20,599 nt of DNA from a virus: positions 1 through 20,599 of IMG/VR virus record IMGVR_UViG_3300050821_005864; one strand, given 5' to 3'. Below, in pieces: positions 2,240 through 8,444 of this stretch. The notes under the pieces were generated by a model. That model did no database searches, was not told where the DNA came from, and worked only from the letters and a program-made list of their open reading frames with translations. The first letter of the stretch is position 1. Every line of letters starts with the position of its first letter. A program made the position numbers and the translations under genes.

Positions 2240-2310
2240 CGCGGACTATCGCACCTTCCTAGCGTCAGAAGGGTGGGGAGTTGAGGATTGGTTCTCCGGG
2301 CTCCCCACCC
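2234..2310 (+). promoter_or_regulatory. Two abutting perfect stem-loops in the polymerase leader
   Basis: TTCTGACGC (2234-2242) pairs perfectly with GCGTCAGAA (2262-2270) around a 19-nt loop. Immediately after, GGGTGGGGAG (2271-2280) pairs perfectly with CTCCCCACCC (2301-2310) around a 20-nt loop. The second stem ends 8 nt before the GGAG of the polymerase gene at 2319-2322. No T-run is present. An attenuator, an RNase processing site or a translational control element are all possible. Confidence 0.6.
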
Positions 2311-2328
2311 ACTCTCTCGGAGATTTAC

Positions 2329-4101
2329 ATGTTCCATGACATCGATCCACAACGTGCCATAAATATGGTGTCGCAATCCACAGTTATCGCATTTGACTGC
2401 GAAACGACGGGGTTAACGGTTCATGATCGAGTATGTGGATGGGTGTTTACCGACGACTATGCAAGCATCTACGTACCCACTCGTCACCTGGGTGGAGGCA
2501 ATATTCTCAATGCGGGCGAATTCGAGAGAGTACTTGCTTTGTCTTTTCGAGATCGATCCAGGCGCGGATTTCGGACGGTCGGGCATAATCTTGGTTTCGA
2601 CCTTCGCATGGCGGGAAAACACGGAGTCTTCCCCGAATTCCCCCTGGAAGACACGATGATCAATGAGGCGCTTATCAGTGACATTACTAGGGGATATGGA
2701 CTCGACGACTGTTGCACTCGTCATGGCGTTACTGCTAAGCTTGGTGACGCTGTTTACCGTGCCATTGCTAGTAGATTTGGTGGAATGCCCGACCGTAAAG
2801 CGATGGCTAATTTTCACCGAATGGCAGGCGATGATCCTGACGTTGTTGATTATGCTACGGGTGATGGGATATCCACTCTAGAGCTGTGGAAAGTTCAGCA
2901 AAAGATGCTCGACGATCACGAATTACGGGTTCCCTGGAAGTTGGAGTGCCAACTTATTCACAGGGTGGCGCGTCTTCACCGACGCGGAATGAGAGTGGAT
3001 GGAGAATATGGAGAGCAACTTCGAGGACCGACCGGAATTCTTGAGACGAAAATTGCCACGCTTCAATCGGCCTTTCCATATGGTTTTAACACCAACTCGC
3101 CAAAAGACGTTGAAGGTTTATACCGTCGTGCGGGATTCGGGGACGACGACTTCGCTCGCACCGAGAATGGGGCCGTTTCATTTACCGAAGGGTGGTTAAA
3201 GAATAACGAGATTGGTGAGCGAATTATAGCGATCCGTCAGCTAAAGAAGGCTCGAGATTCGTTTGTAACGCCGCTCGTGGAGACGCATAATGTTAAGGGA
3301 CGAGTTCATCCTGTACTCAATCAATCTAAATCTGACGACTACGGTGCGATCGGAGCGCGATTTAGCTGTTCTGAGCCGAATCTTCAAGCGTTCCCAAAAC
3401 GAAATAAAGAAGTCGGGAAAGTCGTCCGACGACTCATCATTGCTGATGACGGTTTCGAGATTCAGGAAGGCGACGCCAAGCAGCAAGAGCCCAGATTGTT
3501 TGCATATTTCTCAGACGATGAGCGATTACTTCAGGGATACCGCACCGGAACTATGGACATCCACGACATCACTTCCGCTGGTCTGGGATTGCACCGAGAT
3601 ATCGCTAAACGAATGGCCATGGGAATCCTGACTGGCATGTCAGCTAAGGCACTGTCGGGGCACATGGGTTGGCCGTACCAACGAGCGCTCGATTACCACA
3701 ACGCATTTTTAAAACAGCAATTCCCCGCCATCCGCAAATTTCAGAAGGCTGCGATGGGGGTATTTCTATCAAGCGGATATGTTAAGTCAATCACTGGCAG
3801 GAAAGCTCGTCTCGACGATAAGGAATACGCTTATCGCGCGGTGAGCCGAATCATTCAGAACTCTGGCGGCGATCTCATGAAAACTACGCTGCTCAGGGCG
3901 TGCGAATATGAAGAGGCATATCCACAAGTTCAGCTGCTAATGACCGTACACGATTCACTGATATGGCAACGTGAAATAGGATTCGACACCAGCGAATTGA
4001 TAAAAGTGTGCGAGGCAGTCCCGAATGAATTCAACCTGGGTATTCCTATCCCGTACGAAATAGGAACAGGAGTCAATTGGGCGGAAGCAAGCTACGGATA
4101 A
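2329..4101 (+). CDS. dpoZ: Family-A DNA polymerase with 3'-5' exonuclease, DpoZ candidate
   Basis: This 590-aa replicative polymerase lacks the 5'-nuclease domain of E. coli Pol I. The exonuclease domain (about 15-195) is intact: ExoI D23-E25 in DCET, ExoII GHNLGFD with N87 and D91, ExoIII Y175-D179. The polymerase domain has GARFSCSEPNLQAFP (about 343-356), motif A with D382 and E387 (GDAKQQE), motif B R423-x3-K427, and motif C H541-D542. Motif B is odd: positions matching E. coli Phe762 and Tyr766 are Met431 and Thr435. The ATG at 2329 is chosen because GGAG lies 6 nt upstream. Earlier in-frame starts would lie within the leader hairpins. Several phages that carry PurZ encode such a PolA-type enzyme, DpoZ, which favours 2-aminoadenine. 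That assignment here rests on the purZ and mazZ neighbours, while the polymerase call itself is firm. Confidence 0.9.
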   Translation: MFHDIDPQRAINMVSQSTVIAFDCETTGLTVHDRVCGWVFTDDYASIYVPTRHLGGGNILNAGEFERVLALSFRDRSRRGFRTVGHNLGFDLRMAGKHGVFPEFPLEDTMINEALISDITRGYGLDDCCTRHGVTAKLGDAVYRAIASRFGGMPDRKAMANFHRMAGDDPDVVDYATGDGISTLELWKVQQKMLDDHELRVPWKLECQLIHRVARLHRRGMRVDGEYGEQLRGPTGILETKIATLQSAFPYGFNTNSPKDVEGLYRRAGFGDDDFARTENGAVSFTEGWLKNNEIGERIIAIRQLKKARDSFVTPLVETHNVKGRVHPVLNQSKSDDYGAIGARFSCSEPNLQAFPKRNKEVGKVVRRLIIADDGFEIQEGDAKQQEPRLFAYFSDDERLLQGYRTGTMDIHDITSAGLGLHRDIAKRMAMGILTGMSAKALSGHMGWPYQRALDYHNAFLKQQFPAIRKFQKAAMGVFLSSGYVKSITGRKARLDDKEYAYRAVSRIIQNSGGDLMKTTLLRACEYEEAYPQVQLLMTVHDSLIWQREIGFDTSELIKVCEAVPNEFNLGIPIPYEIGTGVNWAEASYG

Positions 4102-4358: not shown

Positions 4359-4552
4359 TGGTATACGATAATCCGAACCACGCTCCAAAAGCCTATTCGA
4401 CGAAATACTACAAATGCGATGCATGTGAGCGCCTGCACGTTGTGCTGGTAGATAAAGACGATAAATACATTGCAACTGCAGTCATCAGTCGCGACGTGCT
4501 AGAACACATGTTCAAGGTGATTGACGATGATCCAACTATTCTGACGCAATGA
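4358..4552 (+). CDS. Small unassigned protein with a CxxC pair, 64 aa
   Basis: I do not recognise this protein. It has one CxxC pair (C20, C23 in YYKCDACERLH), a beta-type centre (LHVVLVDKDDKYIATAVIS) and a helical end. A single CxxC is not enough for a lone zinc ribbon unless the protein dimerises or uses the nearby His. The ATG overlaps the upstream stop (TGATG), and its own TGA overlaps the next ATG in an ATGA junction, so it looks translationally coupled on both sides within the P3 operon. That tight packing is the main evidence that it is a gene. Confidence 0.6.
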   Translation: MVYDNPNHAPKAYSTKYYKCDACERLHVVLVDKDDKYIATAVISRDVLEHMFKVIDDDPTILTQ

Positions 4553-4941
4553 CCGAAGAGAGCCAGCTCAAGACAGAGCTTGTGAAGCAATGTAAAGCTA
4601 TGGGTTGGTACGCTCGCCGAATAGAGGATAAATTCGCTGTTGGTATTCTGGATATTCACATCGTTCCCACAAACTGTCAGACACTATTCGTAGAGGCCAA
4701 GGTGACTGATGGGCTGGTATTCCGGCCGACCGAGCGGCAATTCATCGAGGGACGACGCATTATCGAGGCAAGAGGATTCGCGCAGCCAGTGTTAATCGGT
4801 TGGCGACAAGACATAATGCACATCGCGGATTGGGCCAGGGAAGCGTATATAACGCGCGCGTTCAAACAACCATCGGGCATGAACTATGCCCAAACAATCG
4901 GAGAGTGGCTTCATGGGAAACAATACAATAACCAGTCTTAG
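4549..4941 (+). CDS. VRR-NUC / PD-(D/E)xK-like nuclease
   Basis: This 130-aa protein resembles small stand-alone VRR-NUC nucleases of phages. The N-terminal helix has E10 (QLKTELVKQCK). Then come RRIEDKFAVGILDI with D35, and LFVEAKV with E49-x-K51, the D...ExK core of PD-(D/E)xK enzymes. The polar RPTERQF and the later beta strand VLIGW fit the fold. Family members are thought to cut structured DNA or act in replication and repair. A role in recombination intermediates, host DNA degradation or genome maturation is equally possible here. The start overlaps the previous stop in ATGA form. The end overlaps the next gene by 29 nt. Fold assignment comes from motif reading only; the exact substrate is unknown. 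Confidence 0.75.
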   Translation: MTEESQLKTELVKQCKAMGWYARRIEDKFAVGILDIHIVPTNCQTLFVEAKVTDGLVFRPTERQFIEGRRIIEARGFAQPVLIGWRQDIMHIADWAREAYITRAFKQPSGMNYAQTIGEWLHGKQYNNQS

Positions 4942-5203
4942 CAGCATCGAAATGAGCGTAAAAGAATTGGTGGCGCGCAGAGCCTTGACTCATGGTAGTT
5001 GGGCCGAAACGGCAAGAGTAGCCCAGAATATTAAGAACGCGATGGGTAGTTCTCCAAATTGGCCGAACTTAGCAGACAGCCAGAAAGAAGGGCTAGACAT
5101 GATTGCGCAAAAGATAGCACGTATCCTGACTGGGAACATGAATGCTGATGAGCATTGGGAAGACATAGCTGGTTACATCGAGTTGATAAGGCGGGGACTG
5201 TGA
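4913..5203 (+). CDS. DUF6378-like all-alpha protein directly before purZ
   Basis: This 96-aa helical protein has the pattern RRALTHGSW...Q, then QKEGLDMIAQKIARILTG, then DEHWEDIAGYIEL. The pattern matches my memory of the DUF6378 family found in many phages (THG motif, LDMIA.KIARIL, HW.DIAGY). Its function is not established. The start at 4913 has GGAG at 4900-4903, 9 nt upstream, and lies within the end of the nuclease gene. Its stop overlaps the purZ GTG start (GTGA), so the two proteins are probably made in coupled fashion. Conserved His, Asp and Glu in a small helical domain next to nucleotide-metabolism genes make a nucleotide-handling role conceivable, but no motif proves it. Confidence 0.65.
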   Translation: MGNNTITSLSSIEMSVKELVARRALTHGSWAETARVAQNIKNAMGSSPNWPNLADSQKEGLDMIAQKIARILTGNMNADEHWEDIAGYIELIRRGL

Positions 5204-6258
5204 GCAGCCTATTCTCGTCAACTGGCCTCCACGTAATGGCGGGAGGCCAATATGGCTCCGAGGGTAAGGGTCTGCTCGCCGCTTGGCTCGCGGAACGCGC
5301 TGTCGAGGAGAACATTCCATTCAACGGCGTCATTACAAGCGCGGGGCCGAATAGCGGACACACCAGCTATTTCGGCGATCGTAAAATTGTGCTGAAACAG
5401 CTGCCTACCTTCGCAGTTCACATGAGCCTACGAGGGTGGCACATTCCAGTCTACTTTTCGGCGGGATCGGTGATCGACGCTGAAATACTGGTATCGGAAC
5501 ACAACGCATTCCAAGACATCCCCATCTATATTCACCCATGCGCGACGGTGGTTCTCGAAAAGGATAGGGTGGCCGAACATGATGCCTCTGGTAGCATATT
5601 CGCTGTTGCTGGAACCCGCAGTGGAACCGGTGCGGCTATTGCTCGCAAAGTCCGTCGGGATATTTCCGCTATTTATTACAACTATTCTCAGCGCCTGTTT
5701 CCCTATTATGAAAGTATTGTTGATCTGGATTATCATCCGTATTTTATGGAGATATCACAAGGATTTTCACTCGGATTGAACGAGGCTAAATTCTACCCGA
5801 ACGTAACCAGCCGCGAATGTACGTTCATGCAGGGGATGGCTGATTCCCGCCTCCCGCCAACGTATTACAAACGAGGCTATCTGGCGTTCCGAACTTATCC
5901 GATCCGAGTCGGGAATTCCGATGGGTTCAGCAGCGGAGATTGGTATCAGGATCAACAGGAAACCACCTGGGATGCGATAGGCGTTCCCGTCGAATATACG
6001 ACCGTAACTAAGCGGGTGCGCCGTGTCGCCACGTTCAGCTGGAACCAGTTCAAAGATTCGGTGACAGCGAATGCGCCGACGCACGTGTTCCTGAACTATA
6101 TGAACTACCTCCATACCAAAGAGCAGTTAGAGTTCTACGAGAAACACCGACAGGTAAGGAATGTTTCCCTTGGAGAAAATTACAAGTTTATCTTCGGGCA
6201 TGGGCCTCGAGTGGAGCAGGTTAACGATCAGGATTCCTCCGGAGTTGAGGGCATATGA
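5200..6258 (+). CDS. purZ: PurZ, phage adenylosuccinate synthetase homologue (2-aminoadenine pathway)
   Basis: This 352-aa PurA homologue is shorter than bacterial PurA (about 430 aa), as expected for phage PurZ. The P-loop is GGQYGSEGKG (residues 15-24). Ser20 replaces the catalytic Asp of PurA (GDEGKG), a change I recall being reported as diagnostic of PurZ. His54 in NSGHT matches the second catalytic residue, and GTRSGTGAAIARKVRRD matches the PurA GRGIGPAY region. The PurA TKLD motif that reads guanine of GTP is replaced by NYMN (299-302), consistent with ATP or dATP as phosphate donor. Known PurZ joins dGMP and aspartate to give N6-succino-2-amino-dAMP, which host PurB and kinases turn into dZTP. 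The GTG start overlaps the upstream stop, with AAGGCGGGG at 5188-5196. An ATG at 5236 is the alternative. Confidence 0.92.
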   Translation: MSSLFSSTGLHVMAGGQYGSEGKGLLAAWLAERAVEENIPFNGVITSAGPNSGHTSYFGDRKIVLKQLPTFAVHMSLRGWHIPVYFSAGSVIDAEILVSEHNAFQDIPIYIHPCATVVLEKDRVAEHDASGSIFAVAGTRSGTGAAIARKVRRDISAIYYNYSQRLFPYYESIVDLDYHPYFMEISQGFSLGLNEAKFYPNVTSRECTFMQGMADSRLPPTYYKRGYLAFRTYPIRVGNSDGFSSGDWYQDQQETTWDAIGVPVEYTTVTKRVRRVATFSWNQFKDSVTANAPTHVFLNYMNYLHTKEQLEFYEKHRQVRNVSLGENYKFIFGHGPRVEQVNDQDSSGVEGI

Positions 6259-6496
6259 GCACGACATGCGGCGCATGTTCGATGCGATGGTATACAAGCT
6301 TCGCAAGAATGCCCATAAAGGAAAGTGGGAACACGGACGCGTCGTCGAATATATGAATCATCTCCGTGAAGAAGTAGTGGAACTATCCAATGCCATTGAG
6401 GAAGGGAAGAACACCGTGGAAATAATCCTCGAAGCTGCCGACGTAGCGAATATGGCGCTCATTCTGTGTGCAATGGCGATCGACGGGAGGGACTAA
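6200..6496 (+). CDS. mazZ: MazG-like nucleotide pyrophosphohydrolase, MazZ candidate
   Basis: This 98-aa all-alpha protein carries the MazG metal-binding signature: E57-E58-x2-E61 in REEVVEL and, 16 residues later, E78-x2-D81 in EAADVAN. The preceding VYKLRKNAHKGKW is typical of small phage MazG-like enzymes. In 2-aminoadenine phages the partner MazZ splits dGTP to dGMP, which feeds PurZ, and its position straight after purZ fits that job. Start choice is uncertain. ATG 6200 retains RIPPELRAYEHDMRRMFDAM, which looks like genuine family sequence, but it overlaps purZ by 59 nt and lacks a good ribosome-binding site. ATG 6266 avoids the overlap but trims that part. A general house-cleaning (d)NTP pyrophosphatase is the alternative function. 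The stop overlaps the next ATG (TAATG). Confidence 0.85.
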   Translation: MGLEWSRLTIRIPPELRAYEHDMRRMFDAMVYKLRKNAHKGKWEHGRVVEYMNHLREEVVELSNAIEEGKNTVEIILEAADVANMALILCAMAIDGRD

Positions 6497-6711
6497 TGGA
6501 TGATAAACAGATCGTAGATCTCGCTGTGGAAACAGCCAAGATGATGGTTAGAGCAGCGGTGCAAACGATTGGCGATGTTGATGATGAAACACGCAACCTT
6601 ACACTATCAATGGCTTTGGGGATGGTTATGGTTACCTTCAAATACATCGATAAGGATATTCCTCACACAGCCGCAGCCACTTATTTGAGGCAACATCATG
6701 ATCAGGTATAA
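6496..6711 (+). CDS. Small helical protein after mazZ, unassigned, 71 aa
   Basis: I recognise no family. The protein looks wholly helical, with many Met residues (TLSMALGMVMVTFKYID), a polar start and HH near the end. The hydrophobic middle could be a buried core helix rather than a membrane segment because it is short and flanked by charges. The ATG overlaps the mazZ stop, and GGGAGGG at 6485-6491 gives a good ribosome-binding site. The sequence around that start (GGAGGGACTAATGGA) recurs before the zinc-ribbon gene at 6732. Confidence 0.6.
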   Translation: MDDKQIVDLAVETAKMMVRAAVQTIGDVDDETRNLTLSMALGMVMVTFKYIDKDIPHTAAATYLRQHHDQV

Positions 6712-6941
6712 GCTGCTGACTGGAGGGACTAATGGAGCCCAATGAATTTGACTGTATAGATTGCCATGTTCATGTATATTCATGGTTCGGCAGAACTACA
6801 GATCGCTGCATGGTTTGCCAATGGATACACAACAGTCCGGAATTAACTGAGGAAGAGATTAATGAGATACGATTCCTTACAGCAACCCCGCTATTCAAAG
6901 TAGAGGGGCCTGATAATGATCAGATATAAGCTGCTAACTGG
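6698..6941 (+). repeat. Direct repeat pair (26 bp, 2 mismatches) flanking the zinc-ribbon gene
   Basis: Positions 6698-6723 and 6916-6941 match at 24 of 26 bases and start 218 bp apart. Both read as ATG followed by codons for IRYKLLTGG. In the second copy this is the start of the 42-aa gene at 6916. In the first it runs into a stop after 15 codons. The repeat therefore looks like a duplicated gene start left when the zinc-ribbon gene was inserted or duplicated between them. Confidence 0.8.
6732..6929 (+). CDS. Small zinc-ribbon protein, 65 aa
   Basis: Two CxxC knuckles, CIDC near residue 8 and CMVC near residue 27, flank a short loop (HVHVYSWFGRTTDR) and make a likely structural zinc-binding ribbon. 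The remaining 35 residues are acidic and helical (ELTEEEINEIRF). Similar short proteins with DCIDC...C..C are common hypothetical proteins in phages and proteobacteria. Their function is unknown, with nucleic-acid or protein contact the usual guess. GGAGG at 6721-6725 lies 6 nt before the ATG. The gene is bracketed by the 26-bp direct repeat, and its end overlaps the start of the gene at 6916 by 14 nt. Confidence 0.7.
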   Translation: MEPNEFDCIDCHVHVYSWFGRTTDRCMVCQWIHNSPELTEEEINEIRFLTATPLFKVEGPDNDQI

Positions 6942-7044
6942 TGGTTTGCTCTGCCAGCAAGATAAGTGGGGAATATGGTGGGTCGTAGCTATATTCGCTC
7001 GCGGTAGACTGTGGTGGGTTACTGAAAAGGTGCCAGTTTCATGA
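6916..7044 (+). CDS. Tiny Trp-rich protein before the helicase, 42 aa
   Basis: This ORF encodes 42 residues starting MIRYKLLTGG, with five Trp residues (WGIWWVVAIFARG, RLWWVTEK) and a basic bias. The central WWVVAIFA stretch could touch a membrane but is too short for a confident transmembrane call. It is supported by exact packing: its start overlaps the zinc-ribbon gene, and its TGA overlaps the helicase ATG in an ATGA junction. Its first nine codons are duplicated at 6698. The function is unknown. Confidence 0.5.
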   Translation: MIRYKLLTGGLLCQQDKWGIWWVVAIFARGRLWWVTEKVPVS

Positions 7045-8444
7045 GTCAGCTTGATCCAGTTCAGGTCGCCGCGCTTGAAGCCTCCAAGGGTAGGCACGGG
7101 TTTGGATTTTGGATGGAGATGGGCCTCGGCAAGACATTAACGGCGTTAACTGAGTTCCAGCAGGGGGTTGCGAATGGCACAACGCGAATGGTTGCAGTTT
7201 GTCCGAACACGTTCAAAGGCGGATGGGCCGAAGAAGTTAACAAACACGGGATGGACGTTGAAACTCACGTCTTCCAGAGCGGTACATGGGCTAGTGACGC
7301 GTTCTTTAGACAGCGCTACGAGCGGCCTCCTCTGCTCATTGTTAATTACGAAGCGATCAGAAGCCCGGCCATACACGATCGTATTCTCGATTGGATGTCG
7401 AGAAAACCCTGCTATATCGCATTTGATGAATCCATCCAGATTAAAACTCATGACGCTCTACAGACCAAAGCGTCTATATCCCTTTCGCGAGCAGCAGCGG
7501 TTCGACGCATCCTTACAGGAAAGCCCACAACTCAAGGTCCTCACGATTTATGGGCTCAGATGCGAGCTATCGGCCAACTGGAGGGACGCAACTTTTACGC
7601 GTTCCGTGGTATGTTCTGTAGGATGGGCGGATTTAAAAATAAACAAGTCATCGGTTCCCAGAACGAGGATATGTTAGCCCAACTCATCGAGCCCCACGTG
7701 TTCCGCGCCACCAAAGAAGATTGGCTGTTCAGCATTCCCAAAGTGTACACCATCCGTGAATACGAGATGACGCAGGAACAGCGCGCTCAATATCGGAGCA
7801 TGGAACGCGAGTTCGTGCTATGGCTGAATGACGAAGACGTCGTTACGGTGGACGCAGCCATCACGAAATACATGAAGCTAGTTCAAATCCAATGCGGATT
7901 CATCATCGACACCGACAACGAATCAAAAGTGAGTGTTATCTGTGAACCCAGGAACAATCCGCGTGTTCGTGCATTGCTGAATATTCTTACCGACGAGGTA
8001 GCTGGCAAGGCCATAGTCGTATACATTCACCGATATACGTTCCAAATCTTGAGTGAAGTATTAAAGGAGTACAACCCGGCTCGAATCACAGGGGGCATGA
8101 AACCAGATGAAATCGACGAACAAGTCCACAAATTCAATGACGACCCAAGTTGTCGTCTCATTCTGGTACAAGAGCGAGCAGGGAAATATGGGCTCACGCT
8201 TCTTGGGGACGCTAGTCCAGGAAATAGATGCGCCACTACCATCTTCTTTGAAAATTCCTACAGCCTCGACGATCGCGCCCAAATCGAGGATAGAAACCAT
8301 AGGCGCGGGCAAGATGCCAATTCGGTCACCTATATTGACTTATGCGGAACCTCGATGGACCGGAATGTCATCCACGCTTTGCAACGCAAAGAAAGTATAT
8401 TCAAGGCTGTATTCAGCCATATTCGGAAGGCAATTCCAGCATGA
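7041..8444 (+). CDS. SNF2-like superfamily-2 helicase/ATPase
   Basis: This 467-aa protein is a compact SNF2-type DNA helicase or translocase of the kind found in phage replication modules. Walker A is MEMGLGKT (K31), motif Ia is VCPNTFKGGW, and motif II is DESI (D129-E130), where most SNF2 proteins have DEAH/DEGH. Motif III is ILTGKPTTQGPHDLWAQ. In the second RecA lobe, IVVYIHRYTFQILSEVL matches motif IV, GLTLLGDA matches motif V, and QIEDRNHRRGQ (about 414-424) is motif VI with its arginine fingers. Likely work is remodelling forks or recombination intermediates, or displacing proteins from DNA. The ATG overlaps the upstream stop, and GGTG at 7030-7033 provides a modest ribosome-binding site. 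Length is normal for phage SNF2-like proteins and no domain appears missing. Confidence 0.88.
   Translation: MSQLDPVQVAALEASKGRHGFGFWMEMGLGKTLTALTEFQQGVANGTTRMVAVCPNTFKGGWAEEVNKHGMDVETHVFQSGTWASDAFFRQRYERPPLLIVNYEAIRSPAIHDRILDWMSRKPCYIAFDESIQIKTHDALQTKASISLSRAAAVRRILTGKPTTQGPHDLWAQMRAIGQLEGRNFYAFRGMFCRMGGFKNKQVIGSQNEDMLAQLIEPHVFRATKEDWLFSIPKVYTIREYEMTQEQRAQYRSMEREFVLWLNDEDVVTVDAAITKYMKLVQIQCGFIIDTDNESKVSVICEPRNNPRVRALLNILTDEVAGKAIVVYIHRYTFQILSEVLKEYNPARITGGMKPDEIDEQVHKFNDDPSCRLILVQERAGKYGLTLLGDASPGNRCATTIFFENSYSLDDRAQIEDRNHRRGQDANSVTYIDLCGTSMDRNVIHALQRKESIFKAVFSHIRKAIPA

Follow-up and report, generated by a model that had tools for sequence, protein, structure and literature searches.

The purZ gene in the stretch of viral DNA analysed here (20,599 nucleotides, hereafter the window; a viral record of 20.6 kb that probably represents a fragment, and for which a nucleotide search against phage records returned no match) very probably encodes a PurZ of the ATP/dATP-donor type, which would make the dZTP precursor from dGMP supplied by a MazZ-like neighbour, with a DpoZ-like polymerase building 2-aminoadenine DNA. 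This reading is well supported, yet it describes an established property of PurZ and is not a discovery; what is new here is the back-and-forth switching between predicted ATP-type and GTP-type pockets among close relatives of this enzyme. The PurZ enzymes of Vibrio phage phiVC8 and cyanophage S-2L use ATP, and that of S-2L takes dATP equally well, lowering dATP (PMC8342488); the published picture assigns the two donor preferences to two monophyletic groups (PMC12884076).

The gene is intact, with 352 codons, its GTG start at 5200 overlapping the stop of the upstream ORF (4886-5203) and its own stop lying at 6258; the start is backed by an N-terminal stretch, LF...GVH (residues 4-11), that is conserved in relatives. 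The product belongs to PF00709, the family that also holds PurA, and is matched in phmmer searches by the PurZ proteins of phiVC8 (E 8e-37) and S-2L (E 1e-32). The NCBIfam PurZ model NF038379 matches it with an E value of 1.8e-59 and 201 bits, under the curated cut-off of 300 bits, which is a naming threshold and not a biochemical feature; the relatives L112 (donor motif SHMD) and L080 likewise fall below it, and the model does not seem broad enough to cover the clade around Ochrobactrum phage vB_OspP_OH (the OH-like clade). The dN/dS of purZ against four relatives was 0.10-0.12, from which it follows that the gene is under purifying selection, and together with the above E values this establishes that the likeness to PurZ is not due to chance. 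An AlphaFold model (mean pLDDT 92.2, pTM 0.92) found its best fold matches in the solved PurZ structures, with alignments spanning the whole chain: phiVC8 PurZ with ATP and dGMP (6FM1; Z 40.6 with an rmsd of 2.1 across 324 residues) and S-2L PurZ with dGMP and dATP (7ODX; Z 39.8) led the list, PurZ0 (7VF6; Z 37.5) came next, and then E. coli PurA (1CG1; Z 34.9). The model was made without ligands, and the ligand contacts discussed below therefore rest on alignment. In the tree the protein lies on the branch of phage PurZ (98*), to which neither PurZ0 nor the bacterial homologues belong.

Table 1. Genes and active-site features of the purZ region, in window coordinates.
Feature	Position	Strand	Basis
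DpoZ-like DNA polymerase of family A, carrying a 3'-5' exonuclease domain	2281..4101	+	profile matches
Small nuclease-like protein	4549..4941	+	weak PHROG endonuclease match
DUF6378 protein directly upstream of purZ	4886..5203	+	related to phage OH p31 and phiVC8 p22
PurZ, predicted dGMP:aspartate ligase (N6-succino-2-amino-2'-deoxyadenylate synthase), 352 aa	5200..6258	+	sequence, profile, alignment, fold
Phosphate-binding loop GGQYGSEGKG, residues 15-24	5242..5271	+	sequence
Ser20 codon, replacing PurA catalytic Asp13; equivalent of S-2L Ser23	5257..5259	+	alignment
Glu21 codon, PurA/PurZ0-like residue	5260..5262	+	alignment
NYMN, residues 299-302, adenine-type donor motif at the position of PurA TKLD	6094..6105	+	alignment
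Gly335-Pro336, equivalents of S-2L G335/P336	6202..6207	+	alignment; PMC8342488
MazZ-like (d)NTP pyrophosphohydrolase (predicted)	6266..6496	+	EExxE...ExxD metal motif
SNF2-type helicase	7041..8444	+	similarity

The gene order around purZ is that of phage OH (Table 1), and the similarity of the MazZ-like ORF begins at 6221, so that its true start may be upstream of that given. The helix-O steric-gate residue of the DpoZ-like polymerase is Thr (RDIAKRMAMGILTGMS; 3595-3642, DpoZ residues 439-454), and throughout the OH-like clade Thr or Ser occupies this position and the helix-O insertion of phiVC8 is missing. Both characterised DpoZ groups have Phe at the steric gate (F459 in phiVC8) and most family A enzymes have Tyr (PMC8599892); judged from their sequences, the OH-like polymerases may represent a third DpoZ group. 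A DUF6378-type protein is encoded upstream of purZ across the OH-like clade, and relatives of it lie downstream of datZ in phiVC8 (p22), Bm1 and BUCT555, and it is possible that this protein is a nucleotide-pool enzyme of Z-DNA phages. At the other end of the region, positions 1-726 of the window encode a phage protein with a PEPxxWA-CTERM sorting signal, and in other contigs of the clade (L011, L012, L013) the same neighbour gene is directly preceded by another protein whose C-terminal signal is similar; this signal may point to a sphingomonad-like host.

Residues of the active site were assigned from a multiple alignment of E. coli PurA (K-12 purA), the phiVC8 and S-2L enzymes, PurZ0 and relatives of the window protein. 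The first-pass annotation had placed Ser20 of the phosphate-binding loop at the catalytic Asp of PurA and NYMN at the TKLD position that contacts the guanine of GTP, and its residue numbers proved exact: Ser20 aligns with E. coli Asp13 (mature numbering; 14 with Met), N299-Y300-M301-N302 aligns with T-K-L-D 330-333, both assignments hold by fold when the model is overlaid on E. coli PurA and phiVC8 PurZ, and the rest of the aligned pocket showed neither an Asp nor a Lys-Asp. Both changes are real but standard for PurZ, Ser being present in 147/147 phage PurZ/PurZ0 sequences of a published set (PMC12884076). That annotation had overlooked the other half of the donor switch, Thr330 to Asn299, as well as Glu21 after Ser20, which is the residue of PurA and PurZ0 where most ATP-type PurZ have Thr. 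When compared with the list of S-2L contacts to dGMP and dATP (PMC8342488), identical residues were found in the window at G19, S20, G22, N51, G53, H54, T55 and T139, and further at R153 (the equivalent of the Arg contributed by the other subunit), Q187, T203, R236, V237, T267-T270, R274, N299, G335 and P336, the last two being the pair by which S-2L PurZ holds the donor adenine and stacks on it (PMC8342488). At the donor site S-2L N305 corresponds to N299, F306 is conservatively replaced by Tyr300, and Q308 is replaced by Asn302, which matches N297 of phiVC8. The dGMP-pocket residues unlike those of S-2L and phiVC8 are A50 to S52, G130 to A137, S131 to G138, Y203 to N201 and C204 to V202. In the aspartate loop, Thr267 and Val269 agree with PurZ and not with PurA.

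The kept S-2L/phiVC8 contacts, together with the covariation across homologues described below, support the proposal already made from the active-site changes, namely that the substrate is a different nucleotide, here predicted to be dGMP, and the donor is of the ATP type. Replacement of Asp by Ser20 would provide space for the guanine 2-amino group, the donor adenine would be contacted by Asn299 and Asn302 and stacked upon by Tyr300 and Pro336, and the Asp that reads guanine in PurA and PurZ0 is gone. As the donor ribose would not be read, dATP should serve as well as ATP. By analogy with established work on PurA and on the phiVC8 and S-2L PurZ enzymes, dGMP, for which the MazZ-like neighbour would be the source, would be activated at O6 with (d)ATP prior to coupling with aspartate; the product of this NTP-consuming step would be N6-succino-2-amino-2'-deoxyadenylate, the dZTP precursor, dZTP would be finished by host enzymes, and the DpoZ-like polymerase would then make 2-aminoadenine DNA. 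The paper on phage OH describes its genes without a test of the DNA base (PMC7139368), and no enzyme assay for the OH-like clade or Z analysis of its DNA was found in the literature.

The nearest named relative is the phage OH PurZ, with 49% identity and the donor motif N-F-M-N; this phage has DatZ (p35) and a GSTGKG loop, whereas the window has no DatZ and GSEGKG. The phiVC8 PurZ (DgsS; 6FM1, 6TNH) is alike in fold (Z 40.6-40.9), in the Ser for Asp, in its MazZ and DpoZ neighbours and in its donor motif, N-F-C-N, seen with bound ATP and dGMP, yet it is only 34% identical in the structural alignment and has Thr after Ser where the window has Glu, and phiVC8 carries both DatZ and the helix-O insertion of DpoZ that the window lacks. 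Most ligand contacts of S-2L PurZ (7ODX), for which ATP or dATP use has been shown, are kept, those to dATP included; S-2L differs in Gln308 against Asn302 and in a loop Thr against Glu21, and it harbours PrimPol instead of DpoZ and has DatZ, unlike the window, which is DpoZ-like and without DatZ. The PurZ0 proteins of Arthrobacter, Gordonia and Microbacterium phages (7VF6) share with the window a Ser at the Asp position and a Glu after it (GSE), whereas their guanine-type motif with Asp at 302, present in all 74 aligned, is absent from the window, which has Asn302 instead, and the polymerase and dNTPases of their phages are a different set. Cellular PurA (E. coli purA) has its fold and overall chemistry in common with the window enzyme, in which Asp13 and TKLD are lost and the pocket is predicted to take dGMP, not IMP, with no GTP-reading Asp.

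The first-pass annotation had added that use of dATP would drain the competing nucleotide. This is biochemically plausible, having been shown for S-2L; comparison of genomes lent it no support, as DatZ is retained no better in guanine-type relatives, in which PurZ would not be expected to take dATP. In phage OH DatZ is encoded between MazZ and the helicase, and the corresponding interval of the window (6496-7041) does not contain it, such that of the Z-cluster gene set (purZ, mazZ, datZ) the window, a fragment, shows no datZ. Likewise, no DatZ was found between MazZ and the helicase in the window's subclade, in L080 or in the Cys-loop pair L083/L084 wherever the interval was covered, and for three members of the subclade (G001, G002, G003) contigs of 44-45 kb encode no YfbR-like HD protein at all. 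With S-2L PurZ acting as a dATPase (PMC8342488), these absences would fit a PurZ that is the phage's main dATP sink, burning dATP as donor and so replacing a lost DatZ. We regard this as unlikely, since DatZ is absent from 24 of 30 guanine-type intervals as against 15 of 31 adenine-type intervals (raw counts, kinship ignored), and its loss, being common in guanine-type relatives, therefore needs no dATP-burning PurZ. Moreover, cellular ATP far exceeds dATP, so that ATP would be the usual donor, and the role of dATP sink could fall to MazZ, DUF6378 or DpoZ selectivity. A test for compensation between donor type and DatZ found no such link, the interval counts running opposite to the prediction. 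The clade shows that likely Z-DNA gene sets can do without DatZ.

To return to the ATP/dATP-donor reading, relatives of the window polymerase and PurZ were collected, giving 243 unique sequences comprised of OH-like and other PurZ, PurZ0, bacterial homologues and E. coli PurA. Positions 299 and 302 carried either N with N or Q (adenine type) or S/T/M/A with D (guanine type): sequences without N at 299 always had Asp302, those with it always had N or Q at 302, and no mixed pair occurred among the 243. For the wider PurZ collection only this absence is used, as one of its two search patterns itself held N..N and biased the adenine-type frequencies. The 71 unique OH-like sequences are divided into 35 with N299 and N302 and 36 with S/T299 and D302, mostly SHMD. 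A tree built without the donor and loop columns gave the same adenine/guanine layout as the first and required at least five state changes, all forced by starred branches; in 5/5 independent pairs 299 and 302 changed together, a number of pairs for which a sign test cannot fall below p 0.06. Within the OH-like clade the two types were told apart best by positions 302, 299 and 300 (MI 1.00, 1.00 and 0.91), which are the donor-base contacts. These positions and the covariation back the donor role of NYMN beyond what homology by itself would.

A careful tree showed three donor-state changes within the OH-like clade, and an AU test rejected one origin of the guanine type in this clade (p 4e-56). 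Both states occur in the clade of the window itself: L080, with the guanine-type motif TFLD, branches among the nearest kin of the window (99/96), and import of its motif by recombination was rejected, both motif flanks being closest to the window clade. L223 and L233, beside Acinetobacter phage SH-Ab 15497, carry SFCD and represent a further switch to the guanine type, while the tree puts L085, a candidate reversion, inside the SHMD clade, although a place outside it is compatible with the AU test (p 0.11). Donor choice is thus probably an evolutionary toggle, an ATP-type phage ancestor having given rise to guanine pockets at least three times (the SHMD clade, L080 and L223/L233), with perhaps one reversion (L085) and with 299 and 302 coupled. 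Because both states occur in one clade and a single origin is rejected, donor type, as predicted from the motif, does not follow the published split of GTP-type PurZ0 and ATP-type PurZ. We take PurZ0 to be of the GTP type, its usual description, to which the Asp at its donor position also points; one sentence of PMC12884076 assigns ATP and GTP to PurZ0 and PurZ the other way round from the usage followed here.

The existence of L080 indicates that this lineage can carry a guanine-type pocket, and the loop with Glu21 resembles that of PurA and PurZ0 and recurs unchanged in guanine-type homologues from bacteria, from which it might be argued that backbone contacts and the Glu21 phosphate loop dominate as in PurA and PurZ0, and that GTP is still used or no donor is preferred. 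Such an outcome is highly improbable given the strict 299/302 pairing. Within the OH-like clade Glu21 is confined to the window's 11-member subclade (GSEGKG; elsewhere mostly Thr), and there N..N is kept in 11/11 members; Glu21 and N..N also coexist in Bacillus phage vB_BpsS-140. That the gene is a phage copy of PurA making AMP from IMP is scarcely credible despite the common fold and family (PF00709; Z 34.9 for E. coli PurA), as the Asp conserved in 99% of PurA (PMC12884076) is Ser in all OH-like sequences, Thr267 and Val269 are PurZ-like, and the neighbours are DpoZ-like and MazZ-like.

Among the bacterial homologues, chromosomes of Pseudomonas, Cupriavidus, Paraburkholderia, Variovorax, Mycobacterium and others (L151:6040-10279, also L154-L157, L162, L163, L165 and others) were found to harbour an operon encoding a fusion protein of about 535 aa. 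Its N-terminal part is a P-loop kinase, and the PurA-like domain joined to this has Ser at the Asp position (GGQYGSEGKG) and TF(A/T/V)D as a guanine-type donor motif. The fusion protein is flanked on one side by an IrrE-peptidase protein, which also gives a weak Macro/DarG-like match, and on the other by a DUF7002 protein, for which a literature search found no paper naming the domain; weak PADLOC matches were to capP, DarG and VakA. This gene content suggests a putative defence or toxin-antitoxin island.

The window enzyme, read as an ATP/dATP-donor PurZ, is itself a divergent member of a known family. Its relatives provide a warning that donor type cannot be inferred from clade membership, and close natural pairs that differ at the donor motif, such as the window enzyme and that of L080, make the choice between ATP and GTP directly testable with existing enzymes. 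If the toggle is true, donor type would be tuned to nucleotide pools and not fixed by descent.
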